Positions 9,831 through 26,956 of a DNA stretch of 47,019 nt are shown here, one piece after another. Position 1 is the stretch's first letter; the number at the start of each line of letters is the position of its first letter. Under the pieces are notes generated by a model. The model had not been told where the DNA came from. It ran no database searches and saw only the letters and a list, made by a program, of their open reading frames with translations. Origin of the DNA: Candidatus Aenigmatarchaeota archaeon (lineage in GTDB: Archaea; Aenigmatarchaeota; Aenigmatarchaeia; GW2011-AR5); contig JACPDL010000004.1 of NCBI GenBank assembly GCA_016184005.1, positions 78,107 through 125,125 of the forward strand, in the 5' to 3' direction. The position numbers and the translations under genes are program-made.

Positions 9831-9877
9831 ATGCTCTTAATACTCCCACGACTAAAGTCGTGGGTTTCTGAGAGCAT
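9831..9877. repeat. IS605-like double palindrome
   Basis: The inner stem is CCCACGACT-AA-AGTCGTGGG (9845-9864), nested in an outer stem ATGCTCT/AGAGCAT (9831-9837, 9871-9877). The GACT(A/T)(A/T)AGTC core is typical of hairpins at the ends of IS200/IS605 elements. No transposase is present, so this would be a solo end or a small passenger element. Alternatively it is the terminator of the regulator gene that ends at 9829. Confidence 0.5.
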
Positions 9878-10320: not shown

Positions 10321-10471
10321 TGCTCCCGGCGGGATTTGAACCCGCGCCATCGGCTTTCTTCCACCAAGTTTGTCATCATTCGCTTCGCGAACTCATACCT
10401 TTCAAACAGGAAAGTTTTTTGCTTATCCTCTCGAAAGGCCGAAATCCTTGACCGGGCTAGACGACGGGAGC
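10321..10471 (-). tRNA. tRNA-Glu (UUC) with a 76-nt intron
   Basis: Read on the minus strand, the 5' exon starts GCTCCCGTCG and the 3' exon ends CCGCCGGGAGC plus discriminator A at 10321. The anticodon stem TCGGC/GCCGA closes the loop C-U-UUC-G-A. The intron occupies 10356-10431, at the canonical position between 37 and 38. CCA is not encoded. The T-loop TTCAAAT and the acceptor stem are complete. A TATA box TTTTTAAAA (10497-10505) is centred about 30 nt upstream. Confidence 0.93.
10356..10431 (-). other. tRNA-Glu intron (canonical 37/38 site)
   Basis: This is the sequence between G37 and A38 of tRNA-Glu. It contains a small hairpin TTCGC-TTC-GCGAA (plus strand) and a second pairing CTTTC/GAAAG. 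Removal by the archaeal splicing endonuclease requires a bulge-helix-bulge at the junctions, which I have not modelled in full. Confidence 0.8.
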
Positions 10472-10868: not shown

Positions 10869-11601
10869 GATTAATTTATCAAAGGTTATTTTTAGCCATA
10901 ATGATAAGAAAAGATCTATAGTTCTTCCTGATAATTTTACTCCTGAATTAGCTGAAGATGTAGGTTTTCACATTGGTGATGGATATATGAAAAATCGTGT
11001 TGAGAAAACTGGTATTCATTATGAATTTGCTTATTCTGGGAATTATCCAGAAGATATTGATTATTTTAAGAATATATTAATTCCACGAAAACACGTTCTA
11101 TTTAACCTAACTAATTTAGAAATAAAGAAAGAAAAGAAGAACGCAATAATCCTAAAGATACGATCTAAAGCTATTTTTTTGTATTATAGAGACATCTTAA
11201 AGGTAAAAGAGTCTCCTAAAACTGATATAGAAATTCCTAAGTGGGTTTACAGTTCACTTGAGTTACAAAAATCTGTTTTCCGCGGCTTAATTGATTCTGA
11301 TGGGAATTTCAGAATAGTCAAGAAAGGATACCCAATTATTGACTTGCAAGTTCAGAGCCAGCACGTTGTAGAAGGAATGGGAAAAATATTGAAAACGCTT
11401 GAAATACCATTTAGTTCCTTTAGAATAAAACAATTAGATAAAAGAAGCGGTAAAATTTGTATTAAGTTTAGAATTCAGATTAGTGGTAGGAAAAATGTAA
11501 CTAAATGGATAAGTCTAGTAGGGTTCAATAACCCAAAACATATTCGGAAATATGATAAATGGGTCGAGGCGGATTCGAACCGCCGGTCTTCGCCTCATTA
11601 G
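10867..11601 (+). CDS. Free-standing LAGLIDADG homing endonuclease
   Basis: The 244-aa protein has two LAGLIDADG helices: DVGFHIGDGYM (about 31-41) and FRGLIDSDGNF (about 138-148), each with the acidic metal ligand. That is a monomeric two-motif layout. It is not in frame with an intein and not inside a tRNA intron. Its last 14 codons (WVEADSNRRSSPH) are antisense to the 3' exon of tRNA-Val, and its TAG stop lies in that tRNA intron, so the gene apparently inserted against the tRNA and reads into it. AT-rich codon use marks it as acquired. Confidence 0.88.
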   Translation: MINLSKVIFSHNDKKRSIVLPDNFTPELAEDVGFHIGDGYMKNRVEKTGIHYEFAYSGNYPEDIDYFKNILIPRKHVLFNLTNLEIKKEKKNAIILKIRSKAIFLYYRDILKVKESPKTDIEIPKWVYSSLELQKSVFRGLIDSDGNFRIVKKGYPIIDLQVQSQHVVEGMGKILKTLEIPFSSFRIKQLDKRSGKICIKFRIQISGRKNVTKWISLVGFNNPKHIRKYDKWVEADSNRRSSPH

Positions 11602-11696
11602 GAAAGAAGTAATTTGCTTCTTTCTTTCCTACGTCCCAAAAAGCAAAGCTTTTTGAGGATGTAAAGGCGACGTCATAGCCGCTAGACTACCGACCC
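11560..11696 (-). tRNA. tRNA-Val (UAC) with a 64-nt intron
   Basis: On the minus strand the acceptor GGGTCGG (from 11696) pairs with TCGACCC, with discriminator A at 11560. The anticodon stem TCGCC/GGCGA encloses U-U-UAC-A-A after splicing, and the T-arm is GGCGG-TTCGAAT-CCGCC. The intron (11596-11659) is at 37/38. Anticodon bases UAC pair with GTA in the intron, as in the canonical exon-intron helix. The 5' end overlaps the Nudix gene, whose stop TAG is tRNA bases 8-10, and the 3' end is antisense to the endonuclease gene. Confidence 0.93.
11596..11659 (-). other. tRNA-Val intron containing an array-type hairpin
   Basis: The intron contains CAAAAAGC-AAA-GCTTTTTG (plus 11637-11655), the same stem as hairpin H1 of the intergenic arrays at 12593, 15684, 19602 and 23360. 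It also has a second stem, GAAAGAAG/CTTCTTTC. The first hairpin extends the helix that follows the anticodon pairing. Confidence 0.8.
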
Positions 11697-12538: not shown

Positions 12539-12592
12539 CTAAATTCTCCTTAACCTTCTCTGTCGTGTTTCCTGTCTCGTTCATAATCTTGG

Positions 12593-12690
12593 GAGAAGCG
12601 AAGCTTCTCTGAGATCTTCGGAGAAACGGAGTTTCTCTGAGATTCCGAAATCCTTTGGATTTCGAGAATTCCAAAAAGCTGCGCTTTTTG
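12593..12690. repeat. Modular hairpin array 1 (four hairpins)
   Basis: Four perfect palindromes in plus order: GAGAAGC-GAA-GCTTCTC (12593-12609), GAGAAAC-GGA-GTTTCTC (12621-12637), GAAATCC-TTT-GGATTTC (12647-12663) and CAAAAAGC-TGC-GCTTTTTG (12672-12690). Each has a 7-8 bp stem and a 3-nt loop. Spacers of 8-11 nt carry the shared theme GAGAT(C)TTC/GAGAATTC. It is the reverse complement of array 3, with all four modules in the same order. The outer edge is CATAATCTTG. Confidence 0.85.
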
Positions 12691-12713
12691 AGAATTGAGT
12701 TCTGCGAATTCGT

Positions 12714-13193
12714 TTATTTCCATCCAGCTGCCTCCTTTCTTTTTATTTCTTCAATCTCGTAGCCAAGCATGTTCTTGTACCCGTCATCATAATAGAATTT
12801 TCCCTGGAAGCTTTTGCCTTCAAGCATGACAGGTATCCATATTTCATCGTCGGGCCACATCGCATCCAGCGGGATGCCGTCAAGCGGGAACCATTCCGGC
12901 ACGCCTTCGTCTGTTTCCGTTGGAGTCCCGGAAAAATCATTTGCAACGAAAATGTGGGCTTCCATCGCACACTCGCCTCCGATGTAGAATTCATTGCGGC
13001 CCACATGCTTTATACCGAGAGGCGTTACGCCGGTTTCTTCGATTGTTTCCCTTATTGCAGCATCGGCAGGCGATTCCCCCTTCTCAATGTGGCCGCCGGG
13101 GCCGTTCCATTTGCCTTCGCTTATGCCGCGCTTGCTCTTTATGAGAAGTATCCTGCCATCTTTTATCACATAAAGAAGGGTTACGTCTTTCAT
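12714..13193 (-). CDS. Nudix hydrolase (3 of 3), 8-oxo-dGTPase-like
   Basis: The 159-aa protein has KWNGPGGHIEKGES followed by AAIRETIEETG, the Nudix box in a context (WNGPGGH.E.GE) close to MTH1/MutT-type 8-oxo-dGTP diphosphatases. The C-terminal half contains MWPDDEIWIP and FQGKFYYDDG, also seen in that subgroup. It overlaps the histidine phosphatase gene by 4 nt (ATGA), so the two are translationally coupled. A nucleotide-pool-cleaning role is inferred. Confidence 0.9.
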   Translation of the reverse strand: MKDVTLLYVIKDGRILLIKSKRGISEGKWNGPGGHIEKGESPADAAIRETIEETGVTPLGIKHVGRNEFYIGGECAMEAHIFVANDFSGTPTETDEGVPEWFPLDGIPLDAMWPDDEIWIPVMLEGKSFQGKFYYDDGYKNMLGYEIEEIKRKEAAGWK

Positions 13194-13771
13194 AGTTTAT
13201 AGCTCCATCCGGGTCTCCATTCTTTAGGCACCTTTCGCCTCCAGTCCTCTTTGATAGCCTGCTTCCACGTCTTTCCTTTAATAATCACATCCAGAGCCAG
13301 CTGCGGCGCCTGATGGGCAACTACGGCTATTCTCTTTCCTGCGTAATCCTTCTTCAGGTCTTTGATGAAATCCCTGATGCGCTTTTCCACGTCCCTGTAG
13401 CTTTCTCCTTCAGGAAAAGGCTTGTTTATGTGCTTTTCCATCAGGGAAGCTACTTTGCCCGCATCTTTGCCTGTAAACACGCCGTAATTGCATTCTCTCA
13501 GTCTTTTGTCCCTGACAACAGGAATCTTATTCCTGAACGTTAATCTGGCCGATTCTGCCGCCCTTTTCAGGTCAGAGCAGAAAACATTGTCAAACCTTTT
13601 TCCTTTGACCAGTCCCCTTAATTTAATGGACTGTTCTATTCCGAGTTTTGACAGCCTGCCCGGCTTCCAGCCTGTGGCTATTCCGTTCTCATTGTCTGTT
13701 GTGGTTCCGTGCACAAAATAAGTTATGCTAACCGTCTTCTTTCTTCTCATTTCGTCACGTCTTGTCTTCAT
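13190..13771 (-). CDS. Histidine phosphatase superfamily protein lacking the RHG arginine
   Basis: This 193-aa protein is of the phosphoglycerate-mutase-like histidine phosphatase type. The catalytic His is in YFVHGTTTDNE, where nearly all members read VRHG. The arginine before the His is absent, and the rest of the phosphate pocket is present (CSDLKRAAESA, the acid in LRECNYG, second His in VAHQAPQ). ATGW at 32-35 is a family feature. It overlaps its neighbours on both sides by 4 nt. The activity may be altered or specific to one subfamily. Confidence 0.85.
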   Translation of the reverse strand: MKTRRDEMRRKKTVSITYFVHGTTTDNENGIATGWKPGRLSKLGIEQSIKLRGLVKGKRFDNVFCSDLKRAAESARLTFRNKIPVVRDKRLRECNYGVFTGKDAGKVASLMEKHINKPFPEGESYRDVEKRIRDFIKDLKKDYAGKRIAVVAHQAPQLALDVIIKGKTWKQAIKEDWRRKVPKEWRPGWSYKL

Positions 13772-15651
13772 TTCAATCCTATAGCCTTCTCGGCCCCTTC
13801 AACAAGCTTGTGTTTGTTGAAATACAGGATGCGCCTGAGGTCGTCGAACTTGGGGTCGAAGATATTGAGCATGTGAAGCATGCTTTTCCTTTCTTTCATG
13901 TTAAGGAGCTGCTCGATGAACATCGCTGAGTTGAACGCCTGCGGAAAATTGCCGTGCTGCAAATTGCGTTGCGGGTCAAAGTGTTCCGCAACGAGGCAAA
14001 GGTCTGTGGAGGAGTTTATGCAGGTTTGTAGAAGTTCTTCAGCTCTGTCTTTGTTGTCTGTTCTGATGTAATGCGAAACCAGCCAGAGGGTGGGTAGGTA
14101 AAACGGCAGCGTAGCGTCCTCGTAGCGCAATACGGCGCTGTTCTTTACAAGCTTTTGTTCCATAAGCCTGACTGTTTTCTTCATCCTCGAATCATCGGGC
14201 CTTACGATGCCGTAGTCTTCCAGCGCAAGAACGGAAATGTCTATTGGCGCATCTTTATCAAACGTCTGCAGAAACGCCTGGCGCTGCTCAGACCAGGCGT
14301 TTTTGAGTATGAGCTTCTTCAGCCTTTCCCGCGGGGATTTCCACCCATCCTTTTTCCCGAGTATATTGGCAATCTTCGAGGCAGACTCCAGGCCGACATA
14401 GCACATCACCTTCCCGTATGTGTAATGCTTTATTTTGTCGCGTGATTCCCATATGCCATTTTCCTTTCTGCTGTAGTTTTTTGAAATCCAGTCTGAGGCT
14501 TTTTTTATCTTCTTCCAGTTTTGCCTGAGAATATCATCCTCTCCTGTAAAGAGATAGTAAAGATATGTTGCGTGCAGGACGCTTCCTTCGCTGTCAAGCT
14601 GCAGCTGCTTAGAAGCGGCGTTGCCAAGCCTTATCTGGTCCTCTTCGTTCGGTCCTGTCATTTCTTCTACGACAACCTCCTCTCCCAGCTTTTTGCCGTC
14701 GCTTGTATAAATCGGTGACTCCCAGTGACCGTTTCTTCCGTGGATGCCGTAAAAGAACTTGAGCATCTTCTCCACTTCATCGTAATGTCCTGACCTAAGA
14801 AGGGCGCGCATTGCAAAATAGCAGTCCCTTATCCAAGCATAGCGGTAATCCCAGTTTTCCAATCCTCCTGGGGTTGCCGGAAAAGAGGCGGTAGGGGCTG
14901 CCAACATAGCGCCTGTTTTATGATAGATAAGCAGTTTTATTGTAGTAAGGGAAGCGTGATAAATATTAGCAAAATCCCTGTTTTCGAACCACACATGCTT
15001 TCCGCGGTCAAACCAGTTCACCCAAAAGCCAACGCATGACTGCAGTTCTTTCTCAGGATTGATGTCTTTCAGTTTCCTGATTTCTTTCTCTGTTTCTTTT
15101 GCAGTTGTTCCGTAGACGATTGCAAAGGAAAATTTGGCCTCTTTTCTTGGCGGTATAGTGACCTGCTGTTGGGAGTAAGGGATCATGCCAAGAAAGATCT
15201 TATCGGAGAAGAATATGCCATGGTGCACATCTTTGTGCTTTTCTGAGCTTATACCCGAATACACCTTTATTTCAACAATGCGTTCCTTATCGCCGACGTT
15301 TTTTATTTTAATTATGCGAAATATTTTCCTCTGGTTGGTCCTGAATATTGACTCTTGATTAAAAGGCATGAAGTCTGTTATCTCTGCGCTAAGGCTTCCA
15401 AGTCGTAGAAGGGTCTGGAGAACAGCGGTCCTGCTTATATACCGTTGCGAGGAGTTCTGGATAATGGGCTCCTTTCCGTTTTCCAGTATCTTGAACTCTA
15501 TTGCTTCTCCGCGGGTAGGGTCTAGGGCTTTGCTGTATACTATCTTCCCGTCGAATCTCGGCAGGCATAACCACTCGATGCTGCCTTTGGGTGATATGAG
15601 TGCGCATGTCTCGCCATTTCCTATAATGCCATAGTATGGTTTTCTTGGCAT
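13768..15651 (-). CDS. Glycoside hydrolase family 15 (glucoamylase/trehalase-like)
   Basis: The 627-aa protein has the bacterial/archaeal GH15 layout: an N-terminal beta-sandwich (about 1-240) and an (alpha/alpha)6 barrel. Signatures are NWDYRYAWIRDCYFAM, the acid region EEMTGPNEED and GIWESRDKIKHYTYGKVMCY, and the C-terminal base region LVAEHFDP...GNFPQAFNSA. Family members hydrolyse alpha-glucans or trehalose. There is no signal peptide, so it acts inside the cell. It heads the run to the phosphatase and Nudix genes (overlap ATGA). The upstream region is hairpin array 2. Confidence 0.92.
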   Translation of the reverse strand: MPRKPYYGIIGNGETCALISPKGSIEWLCLPRFDGKIVYSKALDPTRGEAIEFKILENGKEPIIQNSSQRYISRTAVLQTLLRLGSLSAEITDFMPFNQESIFRTNQRKIFRIIKIKNVGDKERIVEIKVYSGISSEKHKDVHHGIFFSDKIFLGMIPYSQQQVTIPPRKEAKFSFAIVYGTTAKETEKEIRKLKDINPEKELQSCVGFWVNWFDRGKHVWFENRDFANIYHASLTTIKLLIYHKTGAMLAAPTASFPATPGGLENWDYRYAWIRDCYFAMRALLRSGHYDEVEKMLKFFYGIHGRNGHWESPIYTSDGKKLGEEVVVEEMTGPNEEDQIRLGNAASKQLQLDSEGSVLHATYLYYLFTGEDDILRQNWKKIKKASDWISKNYSRKENGIWESRDKIKHYTYGKVMCYVGLESASKIANILGKKDGWKSPRERLKKLILKNAWSEQRQAFLQTFDKDAPIDISVLALEDYGIVRPDDSRMKKTVRLMEQKLVKNSAVLRYEDATLPFYLPTLWLVSHYIRTDNKDRAEELLQTCINSSTDLCLVAEHFDPQRNLQHGNFPQAFNSAMFIEQLLNMKERKSMLHMLNIFDPKFDDLRRILYFNKHKLVEGAEKAIGLK

Positions 15652-15683
15652 GTTTGTCGTCTCCGGTTGCTATGCTAATTTCT

Positions 15684-15943
15684 CAAAAATCGTAGCTTTT
15701 TGGAATTCTCGGAAATCCAAAGGATTTCGGAACATGGCGGAGCTTTGCTCCGCCTGTATAGGCAGAAACGAAGTTTCTGCCATATATCTCGGAGAAGCTT
15801 CACTTCTCCTAAGATAAGCGCTGGGGGAGGGATTTTCACAGCCGTTGCGGAAAATAAGTTTCCGCAAGCGCTTTGCACGTTTATCGTGTGCAAAGGGCTT
15901 TTTGAACCCTCGTTAGGCTTGCGCCTAACAGGTTTAGCAAACC
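15684..15943. repeat. Modular hairpin array 2 (nine or more hairpins)
   Basis: Hairpins at 15684-15702 (CAAAAATC/GCTTTTTG), 15712-15728 (GAAATCC-AAA-GGATTTC), 15736-15754 (GGCGGAGC-TTT-GCTCCGCC), 15761-15781 (GGCAGAAAC-GAA-GTTTCTGCC), 15791-15809 (GGAGAAGCTTCACTTCTCC), 15845-15867 (TTGCGGAAA/TTTCCGCAA), 15870-15896 (CTTTGCAC/GTGCAAAG), 15912-15929 (GTTAGGC-TTGC-GCCTAAC) and 15931-15943 (GGTTT/AAACC). It fills the divergent region between the GH15 and PRC-barrel genes. The first, second and fifth modules match arrays 1 and 3; the others are new. Confidence 0.85.
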
Positions 15944-16034
15944 GTGGCGTCTTATAGATTGCGCCGTAGACCAAACTTGGCTACCCCAGCACAGATAATT
16001 TTTCTTCTTTCTAACCACTTTTCCCCAGAAGAAT

Positions 16035-16072
16035 CTTTAAATGTTTGAGGCGCTATAATACTAAAACGAGGG
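16035..16072 (+). promoter_or_regulatory. Promoter and ribosome site of the PRC-barrel gene
   Basis: CTTTAAATG (16035-16043) is a good archaeal TATA box. GAGGG (16068-16072) lies 6 nt before the ATG at 16079. The distance allows a short leader beginning near 16065. Confidence 0.55.
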
Positions 16073-16078
16073 ATAGTC

Positions 16079-16381
16079 ATGCCGATAAACGTGAAATCAT
16101 TTTCTGAACTGACAAAGAAAGACGTATTTACTGCAAAGGGCGCTTACTGCGGAAAAATAACTGATGTCGAGGTAGACCTTGAGAAATTCCGCGTTAAATC
16201 CCTTGTTGTAGACGCAGTCCACGGATCATACCTTTCAAACCTGGTCGGCAACAAGAAAGGCGTCGTAGTGCCTTTTTCCATGGTCCAAAGCGTCGGCGAT
16301 ATAGTGCTTATAAAACACGTCCAGCCGACAGTTGAAGAAGACCAGCCGGTTGAGGAAAAGCCCACGGCAAAGTACGTTTGA
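16079..16381 (+). CDS. PRC-barrel domain protein
   Basis: The 100-residue protein is a single PRC-barrel (about 5-85): FSELTKKDVFTAKGAYCGKI, then a VVDAVHGS strand and VVVPFSMVQSVGDIVLIK. PRC-barrels are small beta-barrels seen in RimM, photosynthetic reaction centres and archaeal stand-alone proteins, some linked to RNA processing or cell division. A charged, proline-rich tail follows. No partner is evident here. Confidence 0.85.
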   Translation: MPINVKSFSELTKKDVFTAKGAYCGKITDVEVDLEKFRVKSLVVDAVHGSYLSNLVGNKKGVVVPFSMVQSVGDIVLIKHVQPTVEEDQPVEEKPTAKYV

Positions 16382-16449
16382 TTTCTTTCAAACAAATAAT
16401 TCTTTCTATTATTCTAACTTTTATATCCTGCCTTTTGCGATAGTTATTC

Positions 16450-17082
16450 ATGACCAGCATGCTTTCTGCCGAGCAGGCTTATGCGCTCCTTAGAAAGTAC
16501 AGGATAAAGGCGGTTAATACAGGCCTGGCAAAGACTTTTCCGGAAGTTGAGCTGCTTGCTGAAAACATCGGCTTTCCGCTGGTTCTCAAGATAGACGCGG
16601 CGCAAATAGTGCATAAGACAGATGTTGGCTGCGTCAAGATCGCTTACAGCCAGGACAAGCTTGAGGAGGTCTACAAGAAAGTAACCAGCAACGCAAAGAA
16701 GATCACGAAGGAGATAAACGGCGTGCTGGTCCAGGAATTTGTGCGCGGGCTTGAAGCCATCACCGGCTCTGCCATGGACGACCAGTTTGGCAAAGTCATG
16801 ATGTTCGGCTCGGGTGGCGTTCTGACGCAAATATTCAAGGATGTATCATTCAGGCTTGTGCCCATAAGCAAGGAAGACGCCGAAAGCATGATAGATGACA
16901 CCAAGGTGTCCCAGCTTCTCAACTACAGGGGCAACAATATAGACAAAAACAAGATAGTGGATGTTCTGCTTAAGCTGAACAATCTTGTGCAGAACGAGAA
17001 CATTCATGAAATGGACATAAACCCGCTATTTCTCAACGACAACGGCGCCTTTGCAGCTGATGTAAGAATTGTCAAGAATTGA
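16450..17082 (+). CDS. acdB: Acetyl/acyl-CoA synthetase (ADP-forming) beta subunit
   Basis: This 210-residue ATP-grasp subunit is of the ADP-forming acyl-CoA synthetase type, which makes ATP while converting acyl-CoA to the acid. Motifs include GFPLVLKIDAAQIVHKTDVG and VLVQEFVRG..AITGSAMDDQFGKVMMFGSGG, then EMDINPLFLND. The length fits separate beta subunits (about 230). The alpha subunit is at 22014, separated by oxidoreductase genes. A TATA-like CTTTTATATCC stands about 25 nt before the ATG. Confidence 0.92.
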   Translation: MTSMLSAEQAYALLRKYRIKAVNTGLAKTFPEVELLAENIGFPLVLKIDAAQIVHKTDVGCVKIAYSQDKLEEVYKKVTSNAKKITKEINGVLVQEFVRGLEAITGSAMDDQFGKVMMFGSGGVLTQIFKDVSFRLVPISKEDAESMIDDTKVSQLLNYRGNNIDKNKIVDVLLKLNNLVQNENIHEMDINPLFLNDNGAFAADVRIVKN

Positions 17083-17198
17083 GCTGAAGCCCAAGACTTC
17101 AGGATACTGCCCCGGCTCTCCAGGGCTTCCAATCGTGCGGCCTTTTGTGCAAACCTTTAAAGAATTGCTTTACAAATCTATACAGGCAGGGGCTTGTG

Positions 17199-17708
17199 AT
17201 GATTGTTTCTATATTATATGGGAGAAGTTGGCAGGGAGTCTCTGAGGCGACGAATATGCTGGGAAATGCCGCCTTTTCTTCAAAGTTCCAGGTTCAGGAG
17301 ATCGTTGAGGTTGCCGATAAGTCGCTTCCTGTTCTCGGATCAGTGGCTATGGACAAGCAAGCCATAGAATCCCGGCAGCATGAAGCTTCTGACTATCTGC
17401 TTGTATTCGACAGCAAAATGGATATCAGCAGGGTGCTGAAACAGGCAAAGGACAAGTCTGTCGTTATATTAAATTCACAAGAGAAAATAAAGAATCCGCT
17501 GCTGGTAAAGAAGGGACTCAGGGCTTTTTTTGTTGATGCGACAGGCTTGGCTATCACAGCCACGCTTAAGGCTTCTCCCTATGCTGCAATGATGGGCGCT
17601 TTTGCAAAAATAGCCGGTATTATTCCTGCGAAATACATAAGGTCTCAGATGACGGGCGGGAATTTGGCGGCTTTTGATGAAGGCTTCAAAGGCGTGAAAA
17701 GGAACTGA
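17199..17708 (+). CDS. 2-oxoacid:ferredoxin oxidoreductase gamma subunit, divergent
   Basis: The ATG at 17199 (169 aa) is preferred over an earlier start at 17145 because the family begins with the strand MIVSILYGR. The pattern YGRSWQGVSEATNMLGNAAF corresponds to the usual GRGGQG...A...A motif of gamma subunits, but GRGGQG is altered to GRSWQG. The C-terminal half (NPLLVKKGLRAFFVDATGLA, ANMMGAFAK-like) fits the family. It is followed directly by delta- and alpha-type genes. Confidence 0.8.
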   Translation: MIVSILYGRSWQGVSEATNMLGNAAFSSKFQVQEIVEVADKSLPVLGSVAMDKQAIESRQHEASDYLLVFDSKMDISRVLKQAKDKSVVILNSQEKIKNPLLVKKGLRAFFVDATGLAITATLKASPYAAMMGAFAKIAGIIPAKYIRSQMTGGNLAAFDEGFKGVKRN

Positions 17709-17716
17709 GGATACCA

Positions 17717-17983
17717 ATGAAGACAGACGCAGATATAAGATACGAGGAAAAAAAGGACATGAAGAACCAGGAACTTGAAAAGACGGCAAACTGGCGCGTT
17801 TTCATACCAAAAATAGACCTGAAAAGATGTAACAAGAACTACAGATGTTTTGTTGTTTGCCCGCACGACGCCGTAGATATAAAGAAAGACGGCTTTCCGG
17901 CAATAGATGCGTCTAAATGCACGGGCTGTCTCATATGCCTGAGAGAATGCGAACCTGCTGCAATAAGCGAAGAGCGTGAATAA
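17717..17983 (+). CDS. Oxidoreductase delta subunit (2x4Fe-4S ferredoxin) with altered first motif
   Basis: The 88-aa ferredoxin-like protein corresponds to the delta subunit that carries electrons out of 2-oxoacid oxidoreductases. The second cluster motif is complete (CTGCLICLRECEP). The first reads CNKNYRCFVVCP, where CxxCxxCxxxCP is expected, so the second cysteine is Asn. Cluster I may be a 3Fe-4S centre or use another ligand. The stop abuts the alpha-subunit ATG (17984). Confidence 0.85.
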   Translation: MKTDADIRYEEKKDMKNQELEKTANWRVFIPKIDLKRCNKNYRCFVVCPHDAVDIKKDGFPAIDASKCTGCLICLRECEPAAISEERE

Positions 17984-19024
17984 ATGGCACAAAAGCAATT
18001 GTTGTTGGGTGGTCAGGAAAGCGCGGCGCATGCGGCGCAATTATGTAAAGCAGAAAGCGTGCCACATTTTCCCGCGCCTCTCTCGAAAGATATTGCTGTC
18101 GCGCTCTCGAAGATCCACAAATGTGACTTATACGATGTTGAATCCCAGTCGTCTGCCGTGACAGCTGCAATAGCCGCTTCTCTGACTGAAAAGAGGGCTT
18201 TCCTGCCTCTGTCAAAAATCAGGGATATTGAAGCTTTATGTTCGGCATCGTCCTTGAGGGCGCCTTTGGTTTCTGTACAAGCAGCAAGCCAGGATAACTT
18301 TATGCTTTTGCGTGATGCGGGCTGGCTCATGTTTTCAGCTTCGACAAACCAGGAAGTCCTGGACAGCGTTGTTCAGGCCTATCTTGTATCAGAAGACCAG
18401 AAGGTGGCACTGCCAAGCATGATTAACATGGACATGTGCCTGCGCGAAATAGTTTCCCTGTCGGGCGAACAGATGATCAGCAGCACGCTGCCGAGACTGA
18501 AGCTGGCAAGAAAACTTTCCACCAGAGACGCGCAATCTTTTGACTATGAGGAAAGAAACCACGAGCAAATTCACAAGGCTATGGAAAACGCCCTGCGCCT
18601 TCTTCACAAAAGCAGCGAAAAGATGGGCAAGAAATTCAAAAGAAACTTTGGTTTGCTTGAAAATTTTATGCTGTCGGATGCGGAATACGTCTTCGTCGTC
18701 GCGGGATACCAGAGCGGCACTGCAAAATCTGCTGTCAGGAAACTCAGAAATCAGGGAGAGAAAGTCGGCCTGCTGCGCCCGCGCGTACTGCGGCCCTGGC
18801 CTTCTGAAGAGATATCCAGGGCGCTATCTAATGCCAAACGCATAGCTGTTGTAGAATCAGCCATATCCCTGGGTGCTTCCGGGGTTTTGCATGCTCACAT
18901 TAAAGCGGCATTACAGGGCCACATATCTTCCTTCATTTCACAGAAGCATCTCGCAGAAAAAGACTTTTCAGACATACTGGTGCATCTGAAAAGGCAGGAA
19001 AAACCTGAAAGAATCTGGATGTAG
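17984..19024 (+). CDS. 2-oxoacid:ferredoxin oxidoreductase alpha-like subunit, strongly divergent
   Basis: This 346-aa protein is placed by context and by C-terminal similarity: GEKVGLLRPRVLRPWPSEEI and IAVVESAISLGASG match the domain where alpha subunits have G.K.G..R...LRPFP...I and ..V.E...S.G. The N-terminal half lacks the usual GN.A...G...A.....YPITP and T.TSS.G motifs. VESQSSAVTAAIA stands where VE.E.AA is expected. It may be a non-canonical or degenerate subunit. It is coupled to the delta gene without a gap. Confidence 0.75.
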   Translation: MAQKQLLLGGQESAAHAAQLCKAESVPHFPAPLSKDIAVALSKIHKCDLYDVESQSSAVTAAIAASLTEKRAFLPLSKIRDIEALCSASSLRAPLVSVQAASQDNFMLLRDAGWLMFSASTNQEVLDSVVQAYLVSEDQKVALPSMINMDMCLREIVSLSGEQMISSTLPRLKLARKLSTRDAQSFDYEERNHEQIHKAMENALRLLHKSSEKMGKKFKRNFGLLENFMLSDAEYVFVVAGYQSGTAKSAVRKLRNQGEKVGLLRPRVLRPWPSEEISRALSNAKRIAVVESAISLGASGVLHAHIKAALQGHISSFISQKHLAEKDFSDILVHLKRQEKPERIWM

Positions 19025-19073
19025 CTATTCAAAGATGAGCAATTTCTGATCAGACTCGACTGGCTTTTGGTGT

Positions 19074-19403
19074 TCAAGGAGAAGAAGATTTGTTGTAATT
19101 TAGTTTATATGCAATGTTTCTTCCAGTTTTTGTTCCTATCAACAATAAATCTGCAGCTATTGGATTAGGCTTAGATCCAGCGCGCCATTCCTTTTCAATT
19201 TGTTGTTCGCATTCTGCTGGCGTATTTCCTTTTTCTATACATGATTTTGCAATTTGATAACCACCAATATAGTTATAAAAACCCAAAACTAAAACAGTCG
19301 ATATCAGAGACGGACTTGTTATTGTTTGCCTAATCAGTCTCTTTGTAGACGCGGAAACATAAGGTTCCGGTTCTAATGGTTTCGGTCTGTCAGGTGATTG
19401 CAT
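19074..19403 (-). CDS. Single-pass membrane protein of unknown function
   Basis: The 109-residue protein has one hydrophobic stretch (ITSPSLISTVLVLGFYNYIGGY, about 28-49) and a hydrophilic C-terminus with two cysteines (CIEKGNTPAEC). It is convergent with the alpha-subunit gene. The family is not recognised. The codon pattern and ATG are plausible; there is no strong ribosome site. Confidence 0.5.
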   Translation of the reverse strand: MQSPDRPKPLEPEPYVSASTKRLIRQTITSPSLISTVLVLGFYNYIGGYQIAKSCIEKGNTPAECEQQIEKEWRAGSKPNPIAADLLLIGTKTGRNIAYKLNYNKSSSP

Positions 19404-19520
19404 AGCTACTTGTTGATAGTAACTTATTTAACCTTTTTCTCCTCCACGGATTTCATCCCTAACTACATGTCACCCGACTGGTTTGATTCTTTTAAATCTC
19501 TTTTTCCGAAACTATTTCTT

Positions 19521-19582
19521 GGCAATGAAGAGACCGACCCAGTTTGACGGAAACGGATGATTAACAGGGTAGCTCCTGAGCC
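19521..19582 (+). ncRNA. Possible C/D box small RNA
   Basis: The order of short motifs fits an archaeal C/D guide RNA: box C-like ATGAAGA (19525-19531), D'-like TTGA (19544-19547), C'-like ATGATTA (19557-19563) and box D CTGA (19576-19579). The spacers are 12 nt each and a GGC/GCC end stem encloses it. Only box D is perfect; each other box has one mismatch. No target is claimed. Confidence 0.3.
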
Positions 19583-19601
19583 ATTATTTATTCAAAATTC
19601 T

Positions 19602-19700
19602 CAAAAAGCGTAGCTTTTTGGAATTCTCGAAATCCAAAGGATTTCGGAATCTCGGAGAAACGGAGTTTCTCTGAAGATCTCGGAGAAGCTTCGCTTCTCC
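19602..19700. repeat. Modular hairpin array 3 (four hairpins)
   Basis: In plus order: CAAAAAGC-GTA-GCTTTTTG (19602-19620), GAAATCC-AAA-GGATTTC (19629-19645), GAGAAAC-GGA-GTTTCTC (19655-19671) and GGAGAAGCTTCGCTTCTCC (19682-19700). The spacers are GAATTCTC, GGAATCTCG and TGAAGATCTCG. It ends CAAGATTA directly at the stop codon of the arginine decarboxylase gene. It is the same four-module unit as array 1, in the opposite orientation. Confidence 0.88.
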
Positions 19701-19705
19701 CAAGA

Positions 19706-20227
19706 TTAGAGTTCTCTTATGAAACTCGGCAATTCTTCTTCTATGCTGGTTTCTTTCTGCGCCCATCCCTCTGTCGCATAGACGGCTGCAACCAGTACGC
19801 AGGCAGTAACACCCCTGCATTCAGTGCTTTCAATCTTGTAATTTATCATTCCGTGCTCTTCCGGCCTGTAACGGACAAGGCTCATGATGCTTGCCTCTAT
19901 CTGCTTCCTGACCTCTTCTTCGTCGCTGCCATGATGCTCAACGAATATGCCGCGGCCTATGCCATCCACGCTTGCCCAGCCCAAGCCGGCGCATATCTTT
20001 CTGCCGATAACGTCTGTAACAGCCTGCGATACCACGGAGTAAAGCCTGTAGCCGTGCTCTTTATCATTCCAATTAAGCCTCTTTACAGCTACCTGCGAAT
20101 TATCCGGTATCACGGACGATAGCTTGATTATGTTGTAATTGCCTATGCCGGCATCCCAAAGAGCCGCGTCAAACGCGGCTAGTTTGGTTGCTCCCTCGCC
20201 TTTTCCATAAGTCACGAAAATTCGCAT
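19706..20227 (-). CDS. pdaD: Pyruvoyl-dependent arginine decarboxylase
   Basis: This 173-aa enzyme converts arginine to agmatine, the first step of archaeal polyamine synthesis. It self-cleaves at Ser37-Ser38 in KLSSVIP to make the N-terminal pyruvoyl group. Other family features are MRIFVTYGKGEGATKLAAFD and the GLGWASVDG...GIFVEHHG region. The length matches PvlArgDC proteins (about 160-180). The gene ends against hairpin array 3. It is divergent from the HTH gene at 20266. Confidence 0.92.
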   Translation of the reverse strand: MRIFVTYGKGEGATKLAAFDAALWDAGIGNYNIIKLSSVIPDNSQVAVKRLNWNDKEHGYRLYSVVSQAVTDVIGRKICAGLGWASVDGIGRGIFVEHHGSDEEEVRKQIEASIMSLVRYRPEEHGMINYKIESTECRGVTACVLVAAVYATEGWAQKETSIEEELPSFIREL

Positions 20228-20265
20228 ATCGTTCTTTATATTTTCACAATTTAAAAATATTTATT

Positions 20266-20694
20266 ATGCGTCGGGGGAAGGAATTTTACGGCAAGCAGTA
20301 TGAAGAAGCGGTGAAACTCTACAAAGAAGGCAGGAGTATACCCGAAATATCCAAGGAACTGAAACTGTCTTATTCGGCAGCATATCACTGGCTGAAAGGC
20401 TTGAGGAAGCCTGATATCGGCAATGTAAATGCCTTCGGGAAATTTCTTGCGGAAAATGGCCCGCAGCCGGCTGAAGAGATCAAGGACAACTTTCCCAAGC
20501 ACAACGAGTTATTCTTAATAGCTTCCCGCCGCGGGCTGCGGGTGAAAAGGCTTATAATAAACAAGAAATTCAAGGGATATTCAGTGTGGTACTTCATTGA
20601 AGGCCAGGAAGAAGAGCTGGAAAAAAGGGTGCATGAAATGCTAGGCAAGGTCAAGGAAGTAAAGGACAAGCTCCGCAACTTACTGGGTGTTTGA
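20266..20694 (+). CDS. Helix-turn-helix protein
   Basis: The ATG at 20266 (142 aa) follows TTTAAAAATATTTATT. The N-terminal helix-turn-helix reads YEEAVKLYKEGRSIPEISKE followed by LKLSYSAAYHWLKG, the Hin/homeodomain-like type that binds DNA as a small module. The middle resembles a second winged domain, and a coiled-coil-like C-terminus (EEELEKRVHEMLGKVKEVK) may dimerise. The stop is directly joined to the next ATG. The target is unknown. Confidence 0.75.
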   Translation: MRRGKEFYGKQYEEAVKLYKEGRSIPEISKELKLSYSAAYHWLKGLRKPDIGNVNAFGKFLAENGPQPAEEIKDNFPKHNELFLIASRRGLRVKRLIINKKFKGYSVWYFIEGQEEELEKRVHEMLGKVKEVKDKLRNLLGV

Positions 20695-20916
20695 ATGGGT
20701 GTTGGACGAAGGCAAAGAAAGATCATAAAATACGAGCTTAAGCACATGGACAAAATAGTGCTGGGAGTTATCGGTTTCGTCGGTCTTATCTTGTTCTGGA
20801 AAGGCCTTGCGACCGTGCTGGATGAAATAGACAAGTCTTATCCGCTTGATCCCGTCGTCCTTTTATTCTTTGGTCTTGTAATAATCTTCTTGACAGGTGC
20901 AATGATCAAGAGATAA
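20695..20916 (+). CDS. Small two-helix membrane protein
   Basis: The 73-residue product begins with a basic stretch (MGVGRRQRKIIKYELKH), followed by helices at about 20-38 and 52-70. It starts immediately after the stop of the HTH gene, so the two are co-translated. Family unknown. Confidence 0.65.
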   Translation: MGVGRRQRKIIKYELKHMDKIVLGVIGFVGLILFWKGLATVLDEIDKSYPLDPVVLLFFGLVIIFLTGAMIKR

Positions 20917-21032
20917 AGCCCCTTTCTTTTCACTAAAAAGAAAGGCAAATTTTATTTTGTTTAAATAATACCTGTTCGATAGAACCTTAGAGGGAAGAGA
21001 TCAAGGAAGAGAAACCGCAGGTGTCTTGTCTT

Positions 21033-21800
21033 ATGGAGCTAAAAGAAATTGTCGAACAGATGGAAGGCAAGGAGTTTGTGGGGTACTGCACGCCCGGTTG
21101 CGGATCTTTGCTGGGCCTCCGGCTTCTGGTGCAGAGCCTCGGTAAATTCATACTTGTAAACTCGCCGGGCTGTGTCTCAATAAACAAGAATTCGCTGAAA
21201 ATGCCTTATGCGAATCTTGGTTTCAACGCCGCAGCAGCCGCAAGCGGCATAGCCAGATCAACAAATGAGCTTGTAGTGGTGTATTCGGGCGATGGCGCCA
21301 CGCAGATGCACGTCAGCTCCCTTATAGAAGCCTGCAACAGAAATGACAAAATACTGTACGTATGCTATAACAACATGGCTTATTCTGCCATTGATTATCT
21401 GTCGCCAGAAAGAAGTTTGGTGAAGTCTGTTGCTCCTTACGCAAGGTATGCAGCCACAGCGTCTGTAGCTTACGCAGAGGATTTTATAGAAAAGATAAAC
21501 AAAGCTGTTCTTCTTGATGGCGTGAAATTCATAGAAGTTCTAGCTCCCTGCCCGAGTGTAACGGGCTTCGATATGTCAAATACAGTAGAAGTTGCAAGGC
21601 TCGCTACGGAATGCGGCATCTGGCCTGTCTTTGATGTTGAGAGCAAGAAGCTGGGCATGACTAAAAGGCCGTTGAGAATGGAGCCTGTTTCAAGGTTCTA
21701 TTCTGCAATAAAGATACATCTCAAAGATGAAGAAATGCAAAGACTCCAAGACAAGACAAACAAAAACTGGAAATCTTTGTCAGAAGGAAAACTTCTATAA
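21033..21800 (+). CDS. 2-oxoacid:ferredoxin oxidoreductase beta subunit (TPP-binding)
   Basis: The 255-aa TPP-binding beta subunit has CTPGCGS (the CAGCG region), NSPGCVSINKNSLKMPYAN, NAAAAASGIA and the TPP/Mg motif GDGATQMHVSSLIEACNRND ending YVCYNNMAYSAI. AGGTG lies 9 nt before ATG 21033; a GTG at 21021 overlaps that site. It is 2 kb from its probable partners at 17199-19024, an unusual split. acdA follows. Confidence 0.88.
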   Translation: MELKEIVEQMEGKEFVGYCTPGCGSLLGLRLLVQSLGKFILVNSPGCVSINKNSLKMPYANLGFNAAAAASGIARSTNELVVVYSGDGATQMHVSSLIEACNRNDKILYVCYNNMAYSAIDYLSPERSLVKSVAPYARYAATASVAYAEDFIEKINKAVLLDGVKFIEVLAPCPSVTGFDMSNTVEVARLATECGIWPVFDVESKKLGMTKRPLRMEPVSRFYSAIKIHLKDEEMQRLQDKTNKNWKSLSEGKLL

Positions 21801-21837
21801 GTAAAAATAGAAAAATTAAAAATTCAATGCCAAAACT

Positions 21838-21864
21838 TTACCGCTTCTTTTTTTTCTTTGCCAT
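21838..21864 (-). CDS. 8-aa lysine-rich micro-ORF
   Basis: The frame MAKKKKKR has GGGGGAGTG three bases before its ATG, as strong a ribosome site as any in the window. It is far too short for domain evidence. It could be a leader peptide or chance. It lies between porB-like and acdA genes on the opposite strand. Confidence 0.2.
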   Translation of the reverse strand: MAKKKKKR

Positions 21865-22013
21865 TTTCACTCCCCCATTTTTGAAAATAAGTAATTAGTT
21901 TATTACCATGGCTTACTTAAATAGTTTTTGCAATTTTGCGCGGCGGTCACCGCTGTTTTTGCTTTTTGTTGATGCAGCGAAATACATTTTATTGCAGGCA
22001 ACAAGTGGTTATA

Positions 22014-23354
22014 ATGCATGAACTTGACTTTTTCTTCAATCCGGGCAGCATAGCTGTCATAGGCGTCAGCAGAAGTCCCGATAAGATAGGAAGCGTGATT
22101 TTCCAGAATTTCTTTGATTCAACGTATACAGGCGATGTTTACGCCGTTAATCCTAATGCGGAGAGCGTTTTTGAAAGAAAATGTTATCCGTCTGTAAAAG
22201 ACATAGAAGCCGGTGTTGATCTTGCCGTTATTGCCATCCCCGCCTCCGGTGTTCTTCAATCGCTCAAAGACTGCATTGAGAAGGGCGTGAAGGGGTGCGT
22301 TGTCATCACTGCCGGATTCTCTGAAATCGGCGACAAAAAAATTGAGGAAGAAATGGCAAAAATTGCAAAAGGGAAGATAAGGATCATTGGCCCCAATGTC
22401 ATAGGATTATATGATTCTTACAGCGGCGTCGACACGATTTTCAATGCAAAATACAGGCAGGGAAGGCCTGGAAAAGGCGGGATAGCGTTCGTTTCCCAGT
22501 CGGGCGCTTTCGGCTCTGCCCTGATGGATTGGTGCGTCAACGAGGGCGTGGGCCTCTCTAAGTTTGTATCAATAGGCAACCGTGTGGACGTTGATGAAAC
22601 AGATCTTTTGGACTATCTCGCGGAAGATGAAGCGACAAAAGTTATAGCTGTGTATTTAGAGAGCACTAAAAACGGCAGAAGATTTTATGAGAAGCTGAAA
22701 TCCGTGACAAAAAAGAAACCCGTCATTATTATGAAAGTGGGCAGGAGTGCTGAAGGCGTCAAGGCCGCCAAGTCGCATACGGGCAGCTTGGCTGGGTCGG
22801 CGGGGATTTATTCCGGGCTTTTCCGCCAGGCGGGGGCGATAGAAGCCAAAGACACAGAGGATCTTTTTGATTTTGCAAAGGCGCTGGCGCTGCCCCGGCT
22901 GCGTTCCGGCAGGGTGCAAATAATCACTAATGGCGGCGGCTTCGGCGTTATCGCTGCAGATGCTGTTGTGCAAAACGGTCTTAAACTGGCCGGGCTGGGA
23001 GAGAATTCCAGAAAGGCCATTAAAAGAATTGTTCCGGAATTTGCAACTGTAAGCAATCCCATCGACCTTACAGGCAATTCAACAAGCAAGATGTACGAAA
23101 ACACGCTGAAAGCTGTTCTGGAAGACGGAAATGTAGATGCGGTGATAATCATACTCTTGCTGCAGGTTTCAAGCCTGGAAAGTAATGTGATAGAGTCTAT
23201 AATAAGAATGAAAAGCTATGGCAAGCCTATTGTTGTCTGCTCAACTGGCGGCGAGTTCACGGACCTGCACAAAAAACTCCTGGAAGGATCTTCAGTGCCC
23301 GTGTATCCGACCCCGGAACGCGCCGTGAAAGCAATCAGGTCCCTGTCCCTGTAA
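22014..23354 (+). CDS. acdA: Acetyl/acyl-CoA synthetase (ADP-forming) alpha subunit
   Basis: The 446-aa subunit begins MHELDFFFNPGSIAVIGVSR, the CoA-binding domain, followed by the two succinyl-CoA-ligase-like domains. The phosphohistidine region is KSHTGSLAGSAGIYSGLFRQ (about 250), and GPNVIGLYDSY marks the first His/CoA site. The usual length is about 450. ATG 22014 is chosen over a frame opening at 21936 because it begins the conserved domain. With AcdB (16450) it converts acyl-CoA made by the oxidoreductase to acid plus ATP. Confidence 0.93.
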   Translation: MHELDFFFNPGSIAVIGVSRSPDKIGSVIFQNFFDSTYTGDVYAVNPNAESVFERKCYPSVKDIEAGVDLAVIAIPASGVLQSLKDCIEKGVKGCVVITAGFSEIGDKKIEEEMAKIAKGKIRIIGPNVIGLYDSYSGVDTIFNAKYRQGRPGKGGIAFVSQSGAFGSALMDWCVNEGVGLSKFVSIGNRVDVDETDLLDYLAEDEATKVIAVYLESTKNGRRFYEKLKSVTKKKPVIIMKVGRSAEGVKAAKSHTGSLAGSAGIYSGLFRQAGAIEAKDTEDLFDFAKALALPRLRSGRVQIITNGGGFGVIAADAVVQNGLKLAGLGENSRKAIKRIVPEFATVSNPIDLTGNSTSKMYENTLKAVLEDGNVDAVIIILLLQVSSLESNVIESIIRMKSYGKPIVVCSTGGEFTDLHKKLLEGSSVPVYPTPERAVKAIRSLSL

Positions 23355-23359
23355 ATTCT

Positions 23360-23405
23360 CAAAAAGCGTTAGCTTTTTGGAATCTCGGAGAAGCTTCGCT
23401 TCTCC
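23360..23405. repeat. Modular hairpin array 4 (two hairpins)
   Basis: CAAAAAGC-GTTA-GCTTTTTG (23360-23379), the spacer GAATCTC, then GGAGAAGCTTCGCTTCTCC (23387-23405). These are modules 1 and 4 of the full unit, joined with modules 2 and 3 absent, starting directly after the acdA stop codon. The edge CAAGA follows. Confidence 0.85.
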
Positions 23406-23453
23406 CAAGAAACTATTTAAACTCCACAAATGCATAATAGAAGATAGATTTTC

Positions 23454-24274: not shown

Positions 24275-24326
24275 GAAATGCTCAAAGAAACCACCGACTT
24301 TAGTCGGTGGTAACAAAGGGCATTTC
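24275..24326. repeat. IS605-like double palindrome, second copy
   Basis: Inner stem CCACCGACT-TT-AGTCGGTGG (24291-24310) within an outer stem GAAATGC/GCATTTC (24275-24281, 24320-24326). The two-level design and the GACTTTAGTC core match the element at 9831-9877. It lies between the convergent pilin and metK genes. No transposase is nearby. Confidence 0.5.
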
Positions 24327-24344: not shown

Positions 24345-26867
24345 TCAATAAACTTTAGCTTTTAGAATAAGTTCTGCTTCCTTTCTCAGTGCTTCTGCCT
24401 TGTCTGTTTTTTCCCAGGAGAATGTGTCTTCCTCGCGTCCGAAGTGGCCGTAAGCTGCTGTCTTCTGGTATATGGGCCTTCTAAGCTGCAGCGTGTCTAT
24501 TATGCCTTTTGGTCTCAGGTCAAAATGCTTTCTCACTATCTCCGATATCTTATCTTCAGGTATTTTGTTTGTGCCAAAGCAGTCAACATTCACCGAAATT
24601 GGCTGGGCAACTCCAATGGCATATGATATCTGGACCTCGCATTTGTCGGCAAGGCCTGCTGCTACAATATTCTTTGCAACATAGCGCGCAGCGTAAGCAC
24701 CGCTTCTGTCGACCTTTGTAGGATCTTTTCCTGAATTATGGCAGACAAATCCGTTAGCCACAAAAGTATGGGCTCCCGGAACTGTTATATCAAATACATC
24801 CGACCTTGAGTTCTCCGTACGATGAATTCTTGTATAGTAATGGCCCATGATGTATAGCGTACGCAGGTACTCGAAATCTAAATCGCCTTCGAAAAGGTCT
24901 GCATACGTGTCCAAGAAATCCCTTAATTTGTGGTAAGTCAGTTCTTTTGTAGCCTTTCCTTCAGAGCTTCTCGCAAGCCTGCCGATTTTGCATTTGTCTG
25001 CCTGTTTTGTTCTGGTTGGGAGCTTGTTCCAAAGTTTCCTTATACGCTCTCTTTGATGCGGTACTATAATTCTATCTGATTTTGTAGACAGTGCGATAGA
25101 GTTCAAGATCCTTTTCTTTCTGTTCAAATTAAAACCTATGTTATCCTTGAACAATTTTACACTTTCGTGGCCTTTAATGCGAAGATGATATAATGTCCTC
25201 CGGGAGGTTACTTTTCTTCCTTTGATTTCTGCTGATTTCCCATTTGTGAATACAGTCTGAATATTAGATATTATGCCGAAATTAAGCAGAAGCTGCTGTA
25301 CAGAAGTCGCAATGTCAAAAGATGTGGTTGTGAGCTTCACATCCAGAGAATTTTTACTCCTGCCTGTTTTTCTTACAGTGCCGTCTGTATCAAAAAGCCC
25401 GCGCAAAAATGCTGCCACAACGTTGCTTGGAGATTTGAATAAAGAATGCGGAACTTTCTTCTGCCATGATCGCCATTTTCCTAGGCCTAAGTATTCTAGG
25501 AAAGCCCTTAACTCAATGCCACCGAAATATGCCCAATGGCCGAATACCTTTCCTTCTTTTCCAAAAAGCTTGTTGAAAAGGCCCTGCACATTTTTCTTTT
25601 GCTCATCTTCACAAACACATACTGCTATAGCGCCGTTCATCATGCAGTTGCCGTCTCCGACAAGTAAGCCCAGCAGGTATGCATAGTCTTCTGTTAATAA
25701 ACTCGGAAACTGGAAGACATTGTGTCTCCTTGTGCCTTTTTTGTGCAGGAATTTAAAGGCAGAAGCATCGAAGCCTTTCCCAAAAAGTCTGTTCTTCTTT
25801 TGGATTGCGATCCAGTCAGAAGGCTTTAGCTCGTCGAGCCTTCGCCATTTATAGTTGCCGTTTTCGTCGATGAGCCTTATTGCCTGATTTTCTGTCCCTT
25901 CCAGTTCATAGCCATCTTTTGTAAAAACCTTTATGGTTTCCATTTCACCATTGTTAAACCATTTTTCTGCATTTGTTGGTGATATATCAGTCTTTACGGT
26001 CAGTTTTTCTCCTACGATTTCTTTGAGTCTTTCTATTGGTATAAGGCCATTTTCTGTATTTACCAAACTATTGCCTGATATGCAAAATGCGCCGCCGCCA
26101 TGACGGCCTACGCCGCCATAAGTATCAACTATGATCTTCCTGCCTGTCAGTCCTGTGTCGCCCTCGGGTCCGCCGATCACGAATTTTCCCGTAGGATTCA
26201 CAAAGAACTTAGTATTTTCATCTATGTAATCTCCGCATATAGGCTTGATGACTTTCTCAATCATGTCGTTCCTGATTGTTTCGATCTCGACGTGTTCCTT
26301 GTGCTGTGTAGAAATAACAACCGTATCCACTCTCTGGGGCTTTCCGTTGCTGTATTCGACAGTGACCTGCGACTTGCCGTCTGGACCAATATAATCGACT
26401 GTTCCTGACTTCCTAACCTCTGCCAGGCGGCGAACAAGCTTGTGTGCTAATATTATAGGCAACGGCATCAGTTCCTTCGTCTCATTGGTCGCAAAACCAT
26501 ACATCATTCCCTGATCGCCTGCGCCTTGTTCTTTTCCTTCTTTTTCATCAACCCCCGTGGCTATGTCAGGCGATTGCTCATGAATTGAAACTAGAACGCC
26601 TGCGTCATTGCAGTCTATTCCGTATGTTGGATCCGTATAACCTATTTCTCTTAGTGTTTGCCTCACTATTCTTTGCACGTCAACGAAGCCTTTCGTGGTT
26701 ACTTCCCCGGCAACAACAACAAGGCCTGTTGTTGTCAACGACTCTACAGCTACACGAGAATAAGGATCCTGCTTGTAAAGTTCGTCAAGGATGGCGTCGC
26801 TGATTTGGTCGCATATTTTATCAGGGTGACCTTCTGTCACACTCTCGCTTGTTACAAACTCTTTCAT
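24345..26867 (-). CDS. metK: S-adenosylmethionine synthetase, bacterial type, with intein
   Basis: After splicing this would be a 390-aa MetK making SAM from methionine and ATP. The N-extein starts [20 protein letters not shown] and carries [20 protein letters not shown] and [12 protein letters not shown]. The C-extein has [20 protein letters not shown] and [15 protein letters not shown]. This is the bacterial/eukaryotic MetK family, not the divergent archaeal MAT. A 450-aa intein splits the GGGAF|SGKDP ATP-binding loop. ATG 26867 begins the conserved start. Confidence 0.95.
24735..26084 (-). other. MetK intein with LAGLIDADG domain (450 aa)
   Basis: The intein starts [20 protein letters not shown] (Cys1, block A) and ends with [10 protein letters not shown], followed by Ser+1 of the extein. 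Thr and His of block B can be placed near GTENQAIRL. It contains two endonuclease motifs, [11 protein letters not shown] and [11 protein letters not shown], so it appears to be a full homing intein. Removal restores the unbroken [14 protein letters not shown] loop, which is nearly invariant in MetK. I know of no commonly listed MetK intein. Confidence 0.93.
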
Positions 26868-26956
26868 TCTGCTCGGTTTTATATTCAGCAACTGCGCTTA
26901 AATATGTATCAGAAAATTTTATTCAGATAGGAATAAGTTATCCATTGGTGCATCAA
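26868..26956. promoter_or_regulatory. Divergent promoter between metK and the HTH-CBS gene
   Basis: This 89-bp region serves both genes. On the minus strand ATATTTAAGC (plus 26898-26907) is a TATA box about 30 nt before metK. On the plus strand AAATTTTATTC and a GGTG ribosome site precede ATG 26957. Confidence 0.5.

Follow-up and report, generated by a model that had tools for sequence, protein, structure and literature searches.

Hairpin arrays in the window

The window, by which we mean the whole 47,019-nucleotide stretch of DNA analyzed here, comes from the small groundwater genome of a member of the Aenigmatarchaeota (DPANN), 919 kb in 5 contigs (G000). Four loci in the window carry arrays of short perfect hairpins (Table 1), all four as described in the original prediction. 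Arrays 1 and 3, read on the minus and plus strands, respectively, share four modules in identical order (CAAAAAGC, CGAAATCC, TCRGAGAAAC, and GGAGAAGC), and array 4 has the outer two only, missing the middle modules as had been proposed. For array 2, the claim of three retained modules and some new ones is correct as to content (the first, second, and last modules are kept, and GGCGGAGC and GGCAGAAAC are new) but not as to extent, the array proper ending near 15814. The hairpin set that directly follows does not belong to the window-array family, which we call family A; it has no Rfam match and is possibly an independent structured RNA. Across the window, Rfam identifies two intron-bearing tRNAs and nothing else.

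As RNA, array 3 has a predicted fold of -53.7 kcal/mol (z = -7.7). Array 4 is 55 bp long because one of its loops has 4 nt. The intron of the tRNA-Val gene contains a single family A hairpin, and many other tRNAs in the G000 stretches have long, hairpin-rich introns of up to 212 nt.

Table 1. Positions of hairpin elements and neighboring features in the window
Feature	Position	Strand	Description
tRNA-Glu	10321..10471	minus	Intron of 76 nt
tRNA-Val	11560..11696	minus	Intron of 64 nt
Single CAAAAAGC-TTT-GCTTTTTG hairpin	11637..11655	minus	Within the tRNA-Val intron
Array 1	12587..12694	minus	108 bp; four hairpins forming two nested doublets; flanked by a pair of Nudix-like genes on the same strand
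Array 2	15680..15814	plus	Five-hairpin variant with nested GGCGGAGC/GGCAGAAAC doublet; lacks the GAGAAAC hairpin
Doublet nested in array 2	15732..15785	plus	Matches the 54-bp insert polymorphic at C4:104539; boundaries inferred from the C4:104539/L074:6628 pair
Separate hairpin set	15845..15943		Directly after array 2
Array 3	19598..19705	plus	108-bp element; four hairpins
Array 4	23356..23410	plus	Basic two-hairpin doublet; immediately 3′ of a stop codon
Second element family	9845..9864; 24290..24311		Hairpins of a separate, polymorphic family
S-adenosylmethionine synthetase gene	24345..26891		Apparent intein of ~1.35 kb

Hairpin anatomy and abundance

Each basic unit spans 54 bp and forms a double hairpin, with two perfect stems of 8-10 bp and 3-nt loops, and the centers of neighboring hairpins are most often 26 bp apart. 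Outer arms prolong the stems past a bulge of 1-2 nt, usually 1 nt: complementary flanks of at least 3 bp accompany 72% of distinct clustered hairpins, against 22% in a shuffled control. The short conserved spacers noted earlier between the palindromes are therefore present but consist in part of these outer arms. Since adjacent arms share spacer bases, the outer arms of neighboring hairpins compete, as is likewise visible when the doublet is folded as DNA.

Our hairpin statistics for G000 come from stretches totaling ~785 of the 919 kb (~85%), and genome-wide statements come from searches of the whole genome. The 785 kb contain 399 perfect hairpins (stem of 8 or more, loop of 3-5) and 96 clusters of at least two hairpins. 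This abundance is about eight times that expected: 400 kb of real sequence contain 209 perfect hairpins, and the same length of Markov sequence contains 26. Family A occupies 32 loci in the G000 stretches, and a BLAST search of the whole genome returns 61 pieces that match array 1. The genome-wide module search suggested alongside the original prediction thus finds a recurrent family that is not confined to the four loci in the window.

Occupied and empty sites

Arrays are also present in a congeneric sister species, Candidatus Aenigmatarchaeota AR5_44_11 (G001), the only genome to match the exact module pattern. The two genomes, both metagenome assemblies, are syntenic and ~94% identical in DNA. 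In 174 kb of aligned sequence, the distribution of indel lengths peaks at 54 bp (16 indels) and 108 bp (10 indels) over a background of ~0-6 per length. Hairpin doublets or arrays account for 13 of the 16 54-bp indels and for all 10 of the 108-bp indels.

Both states of the site can be compared directly, as had been recommended. There are 14 clean family A pairs of occupied and empty sites, among them array 1, whose orthologous site in G001 is precisely empty (net insertion of 108 bp). In these pairs the inserted unit reads TTCTC...CAAGA and is flush with its flanks. Insertion favors A^T: the empty junction is A^T in eight of the 14 and A^N in 11. We see no clear target duplication, although a duplication of 2-3 bp (AT, ATT, or ATC) describes the data equally well.

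Some loci are occupied in both species by arrays of different size. The G001 counterpart of array 2 is a shorter, degenerate array (L078:7791-7889). At L077:556/C5:5279 there are four hairpins in G001 and two in G000, and the difference is exactly the middle 54-bp doublet; at C4:104539/L074:6628 there are six in G000 and four in G001, and the difference is exactly the doublet seen in array 2. These comparisons show that arrays gain or lose whole doublets within existing spacers, giving arrays of 108 and 162 bp. The conserved order of the modules follows from this nesting. The suggestion of exchangeable hairpins is accordingly right about modularity but not about the unit, which is the 54-bp doublet and not the single hairpin.

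The empty and occupied sites in two close genomes, together with arrays of different size at one locus, show the arrays to be mobile elements, as first supposed. Insertion and excision are mostly unpolarized, and only the insertions within conserved protein domains are clearly gains.

Other polymorphic sequences are visible in the same comparison. A second element family of ~111-170 bp (Table 1) shows indels in L066, L069, L074, and L081; its hairpins (e.g., CTGCTGTC-TTTA-GACAGCAG and CCCACGAC-TTTA-GTCGTGGG) each stand on a longer outer stem, and the family is possibly derived from IS200/605. The S-adenosylmethionine synthetase gene of the sister genome has no intein (L073:8168-8173), and a different intein-like insert of 1.2 kb occurs in G001 at L069:4407.

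Insertions within protein genes

The elements were originally placed between genes, where we do find them, but others interrupt protein-coding sequences, and one module is located within a tRNA intron. Alignments of orthologs show four in-frame inserts. An MFS transporter gains 18 residues in its central loop region (390 to 408 amino acids [aa]), AlkD ~36 residues within the DNA_alkylation domain (231 to 268 aa), PDH-E2 36 residues in the stretch that links its lipoyl domain to the E3-binding domain (433 to 468 aa), and an uncharacterized ORF 36 residues (186 to 222 aa). By inspection, the family A peptide also occurs at the N terminus of a DNA methyltransferase and in three other proteins: FtsY, one PKD protein, and one membrane protein. 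Because genes were called with simple ORF rules, the methyltransferase N terminus is uncertain, as are ORFs below ~100 aa. Six of the seven internal family A inserts, again by inspection, use one frame (LGRSE...).

The in-frame inserts follow from element lengths that are multiples of 27 bp and from mostly open frames: both 54 and 108 are such multiples, so the reading frame is kept automatically. Stop codons are fewer than in simple shuffles (77 observed, 239 in the shuffles). Strong selection against stop codons is nevertheless a weakened proposition, since the simple shuffle overstates the effect and a null model that preserves structure leaves P = 0.025 for the 108-bp form and P = 0.24 for the 54-bp form. 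Purine-rich stem arms largely account for the avoidance.

The methionyl-tRNA synthetase gene carries different hairpin inserts in each of the sister species, in the linker that precedes the tRNA-binding domain (L083:4437 and C4:398177).

Conservation of the fold

Among 30 family A copies within the genus, 96.7% of cells in the alignment pair, and 14 pairs have changed on both sides. The number of doubly changed cells is 44, compared with 10 in shuffled alignments and 0-6 in slid controls. In G021, which belongs to another family of the order, the four-position element recurs with identical spacers (AAATTCT, GAATC, and AGATCT) but different stems. Counted jointly across the two families, 12 pairs are double-changed and 98.9% pair, with 39 doubly changed cells against 13.5 in shuffled alignments and 0-5 in slid controls. 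The conserved feature is the fold, which compensatory change retains as the sequence drifts.

Distribution among genomes

A covariance model built on the 108-bp form detects relatives in 21 of the 31 genomes of the order (E ≤ 1e-4); its E-values are rough and its counts are lower bounds, so these results are qualitative. The distribution is patchy. Two genomes, G005 and G015, have zero matches at this threshold, and G021 has at least 45 where its congener G020 has zero. Hairpin density is 14 per 10 kb in the G021 stretches and 2 in those of G020, a ratio inflated by the choice of G021 stretches around model matches. This element-rich and element-free pair within one genus is a natural place to seek a mobilizing enzyme. 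At stricter settings, 17 of 145 genomes sampled across the phylum match: 15 of the 31 in the order and two of the 114 outside it. A search of viral contigs for two element patterns found none.

Mode of mobilization

We think it probable (roughly 0.8) that the arrays are copies of a tiny nonautonomous selfish mobile element whose unit is the 54-bp double hairpin and which would be mobilized in trans as a folded strand. Stems, loops, and outer arms are maintained by compensatory change, and length is fixed despite differences in sequence; from this we infer that a folded single-stranded nucleic acid is the moving form of the unit, the single-strand step resting on the conservation of the fold. 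An enzyme supplied in trans would recognize the folded unit and join it to the target. The element may persist because its 27-bp periodicity and stop-poor sequence would render many insertions harmless, such an insert encoding a short polar peptide (e.g., LGRSEASPRSSEKPRFSEIPKSFGFREFQKAALFEN). Among the large indels between G000 and G001, none of those examined has the ends of the element, as a larger autonomous copy would. Of the mobilizing enzymes considered (Y1 transposase, Cas12f/TnpB-like proteins, and reverse transcriptase), none fits, and G000 has no Cas12f/TnpB-like family.

The alternative that fares best, although we consider it improbable, is that these are REP/REPIN-type elements moved by an IS200/IS605-type Y1 transposase (RAYT). 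Such enzymes recognize hairpins in single-stranded DNA and insert without target duplication, and the hairpins, flush insertion, and absent target duplication seen here suit that chemistry. Y1 genes are present in G001, and Y1 fragments lie at three G000 contig ends. However, Y1 was not detected in the element-rich genomes G007, G008, G009, G011, G019, and G022, and elements are almost absent from the Y1-bearing G018 and G016. The element ends carry neither a GTAG nor a CGTC tag, the doublet pairs two different hairpins instead of an inverted REP pair, and the hairpin at the IS end (CCACCGTAT...) is unlike family A. The three G000 contigs in question end within Y1 transposase copies of IS200/605 type at C2:6-98, C3:117685-117783, and C4:548760-548858 (L049-L051); as these are copies of one transposase, the assembly evidently breaks at a recent multicopy IS.

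Less probable again is that the arrays are vertically inherited structured RNAs with a regulatory or terminator role at gene ends, such as attenuators or mRNA stabilizers. The strong RNA fold, the base-pair covariation, and the mostly tandem intergenic gaps are what such RNAs would show, but orientation is random (17 plus and 15 minus; in tandem gaps, eight in the same direction as the genes and 11 opposite), and convergent gaps are not preferred, holding three of 25 copies compared with 83 of all 451 gaps. Moreover, copies are polymorphic between sister species and lie inside proteins. Nor do the elements resemble intrinsic terminators, that is, GC-rich hairpins followed by a T run and oriented with the upstream gene: family A hairpins have no T run after them except for one chance-like match. 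The earlier judgment that these are not simple terminators therefore stands.

We give equally little credence to attC-like recombination, in which a tyrosine recombinase acts on folded hairpins with extrahelical bases, as in integrons. attC sites carry extrahelical bases, which the conserved 1-nt bulges at a fixed stem position recall, but stems and loops here are far shorter than those of attC and there are no cassette ORFs. Retroposition, in which a reverse transcriptase copies structured RNA into DNA, is a shade less credible still: the degree of fold conservation would suit an RNA intermediate, but there is no RVT_1 match in the element-rich G000, G001, G009, and G011, and RVT_1 is present in the element-free G020. 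Finally, the sequences are metagenome assemblies and some G021 arrays lie near contig ends, but an assembly artefact is next to impossible: every copy has flanking sequence and loop and stem changes of its own, and the 108-bp form is found with contiguous open frames in at least two separate assemblies. For copies within aligned orthologous genes, an artefact is refuted.

Returning to the selfish double-hairpin element, we raise tentatively, and at somewhat less than even odds, that it represents an undescribed class of transposition. Such a class would have a 54-bp quantum measured by structure, would move as a folded single strand through neither Y1 transposase nor reverse transcriptase, and would nest in itself and enter essential proteins across an archaeal order.

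Comparison with known systems

MITEs are similarly small, nonautonomous, and dispersed, with possible in-frame fusions (PMC10969869). They differ from the archaeal element in their terminal inverted repeats of 15-30 bp and consistent target duplication; here we find neither, barring the inseparable 2- to 3-bp AT/ATT duplication, and no parent IS was found. REP, REPIN, and BIME elements with RAYTs share paired and arrayed hairpins, some of them intragenic (PMC3733652), but the archaeal element has no GTAG-type tag beside the palindrome and no associated Y1 transposase on which it depends, and it joins two different hairpins.

The double-hairpin elements (DHE) and repetitive hairpin-forming elements (RHE) of fungal and sponge mitochondria are closer. 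They too are single, double, and multiple hairpins spread through a small genome with complementary stem substitutions; they form doublets and arrays by tandem insertion and occasionally occur in rRNA and protein genes (PMC2800124). The archaeal unit likewise consists of two adjacent hairpins, shows compensatory substitutions, and is mobile. Compared by description, it differs in its cellular archaeal genome, strict 54-bp quantum, and many in-frame insertions in protein genes. Common descent with the mitochondrial elements is unlikely, given the different compartment.

Rickettsia palindromic elements (RPEs) are also short, dispersed palindromic repeats of several families that lie in frame within unrelated protein genes (PMC10969869, PMC3733652), and the MFS, AlkD, and PDH-E2 ortholog pairs provide the archaeal equivalent, an in-frame palindromic insert within a functional protein gene. 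An inserted RPE dimer or group codes for 20-30 amino acids (PMC10969869, PMC3733652), and one end of an RPE carries a CGTC tetranucleotide (PMC3733652), where the archaeal element has TTCTC...CAAGA and no such tag. Again compared by description, the archaeal element is set apart by its host, its fixed 54-bp nesting double hairpin, its tight stem covariation, and its conserved spacers, and the encoded peptides are unrelated as far as we can see.

A literature search that covered mostly freely readable papers found no earlier description in archaea. Most of what is known of selfish palindromes inserted in frame comes from Rickettsia, and an archaeal counterpart is now available. It offers reduced symbiotic genomes a route by which to gain segments of 18, 36, and 54 residues in core proteins, and its mechanism is testable by comparative genomics because of the site pairs, exact length quantum, whole-doublet changes, and strong covariation. 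We therefore regard the element as kin to RPEs and to the mitochondrial double-hairpin elements, with a real chance that it moves by a new mechanism.
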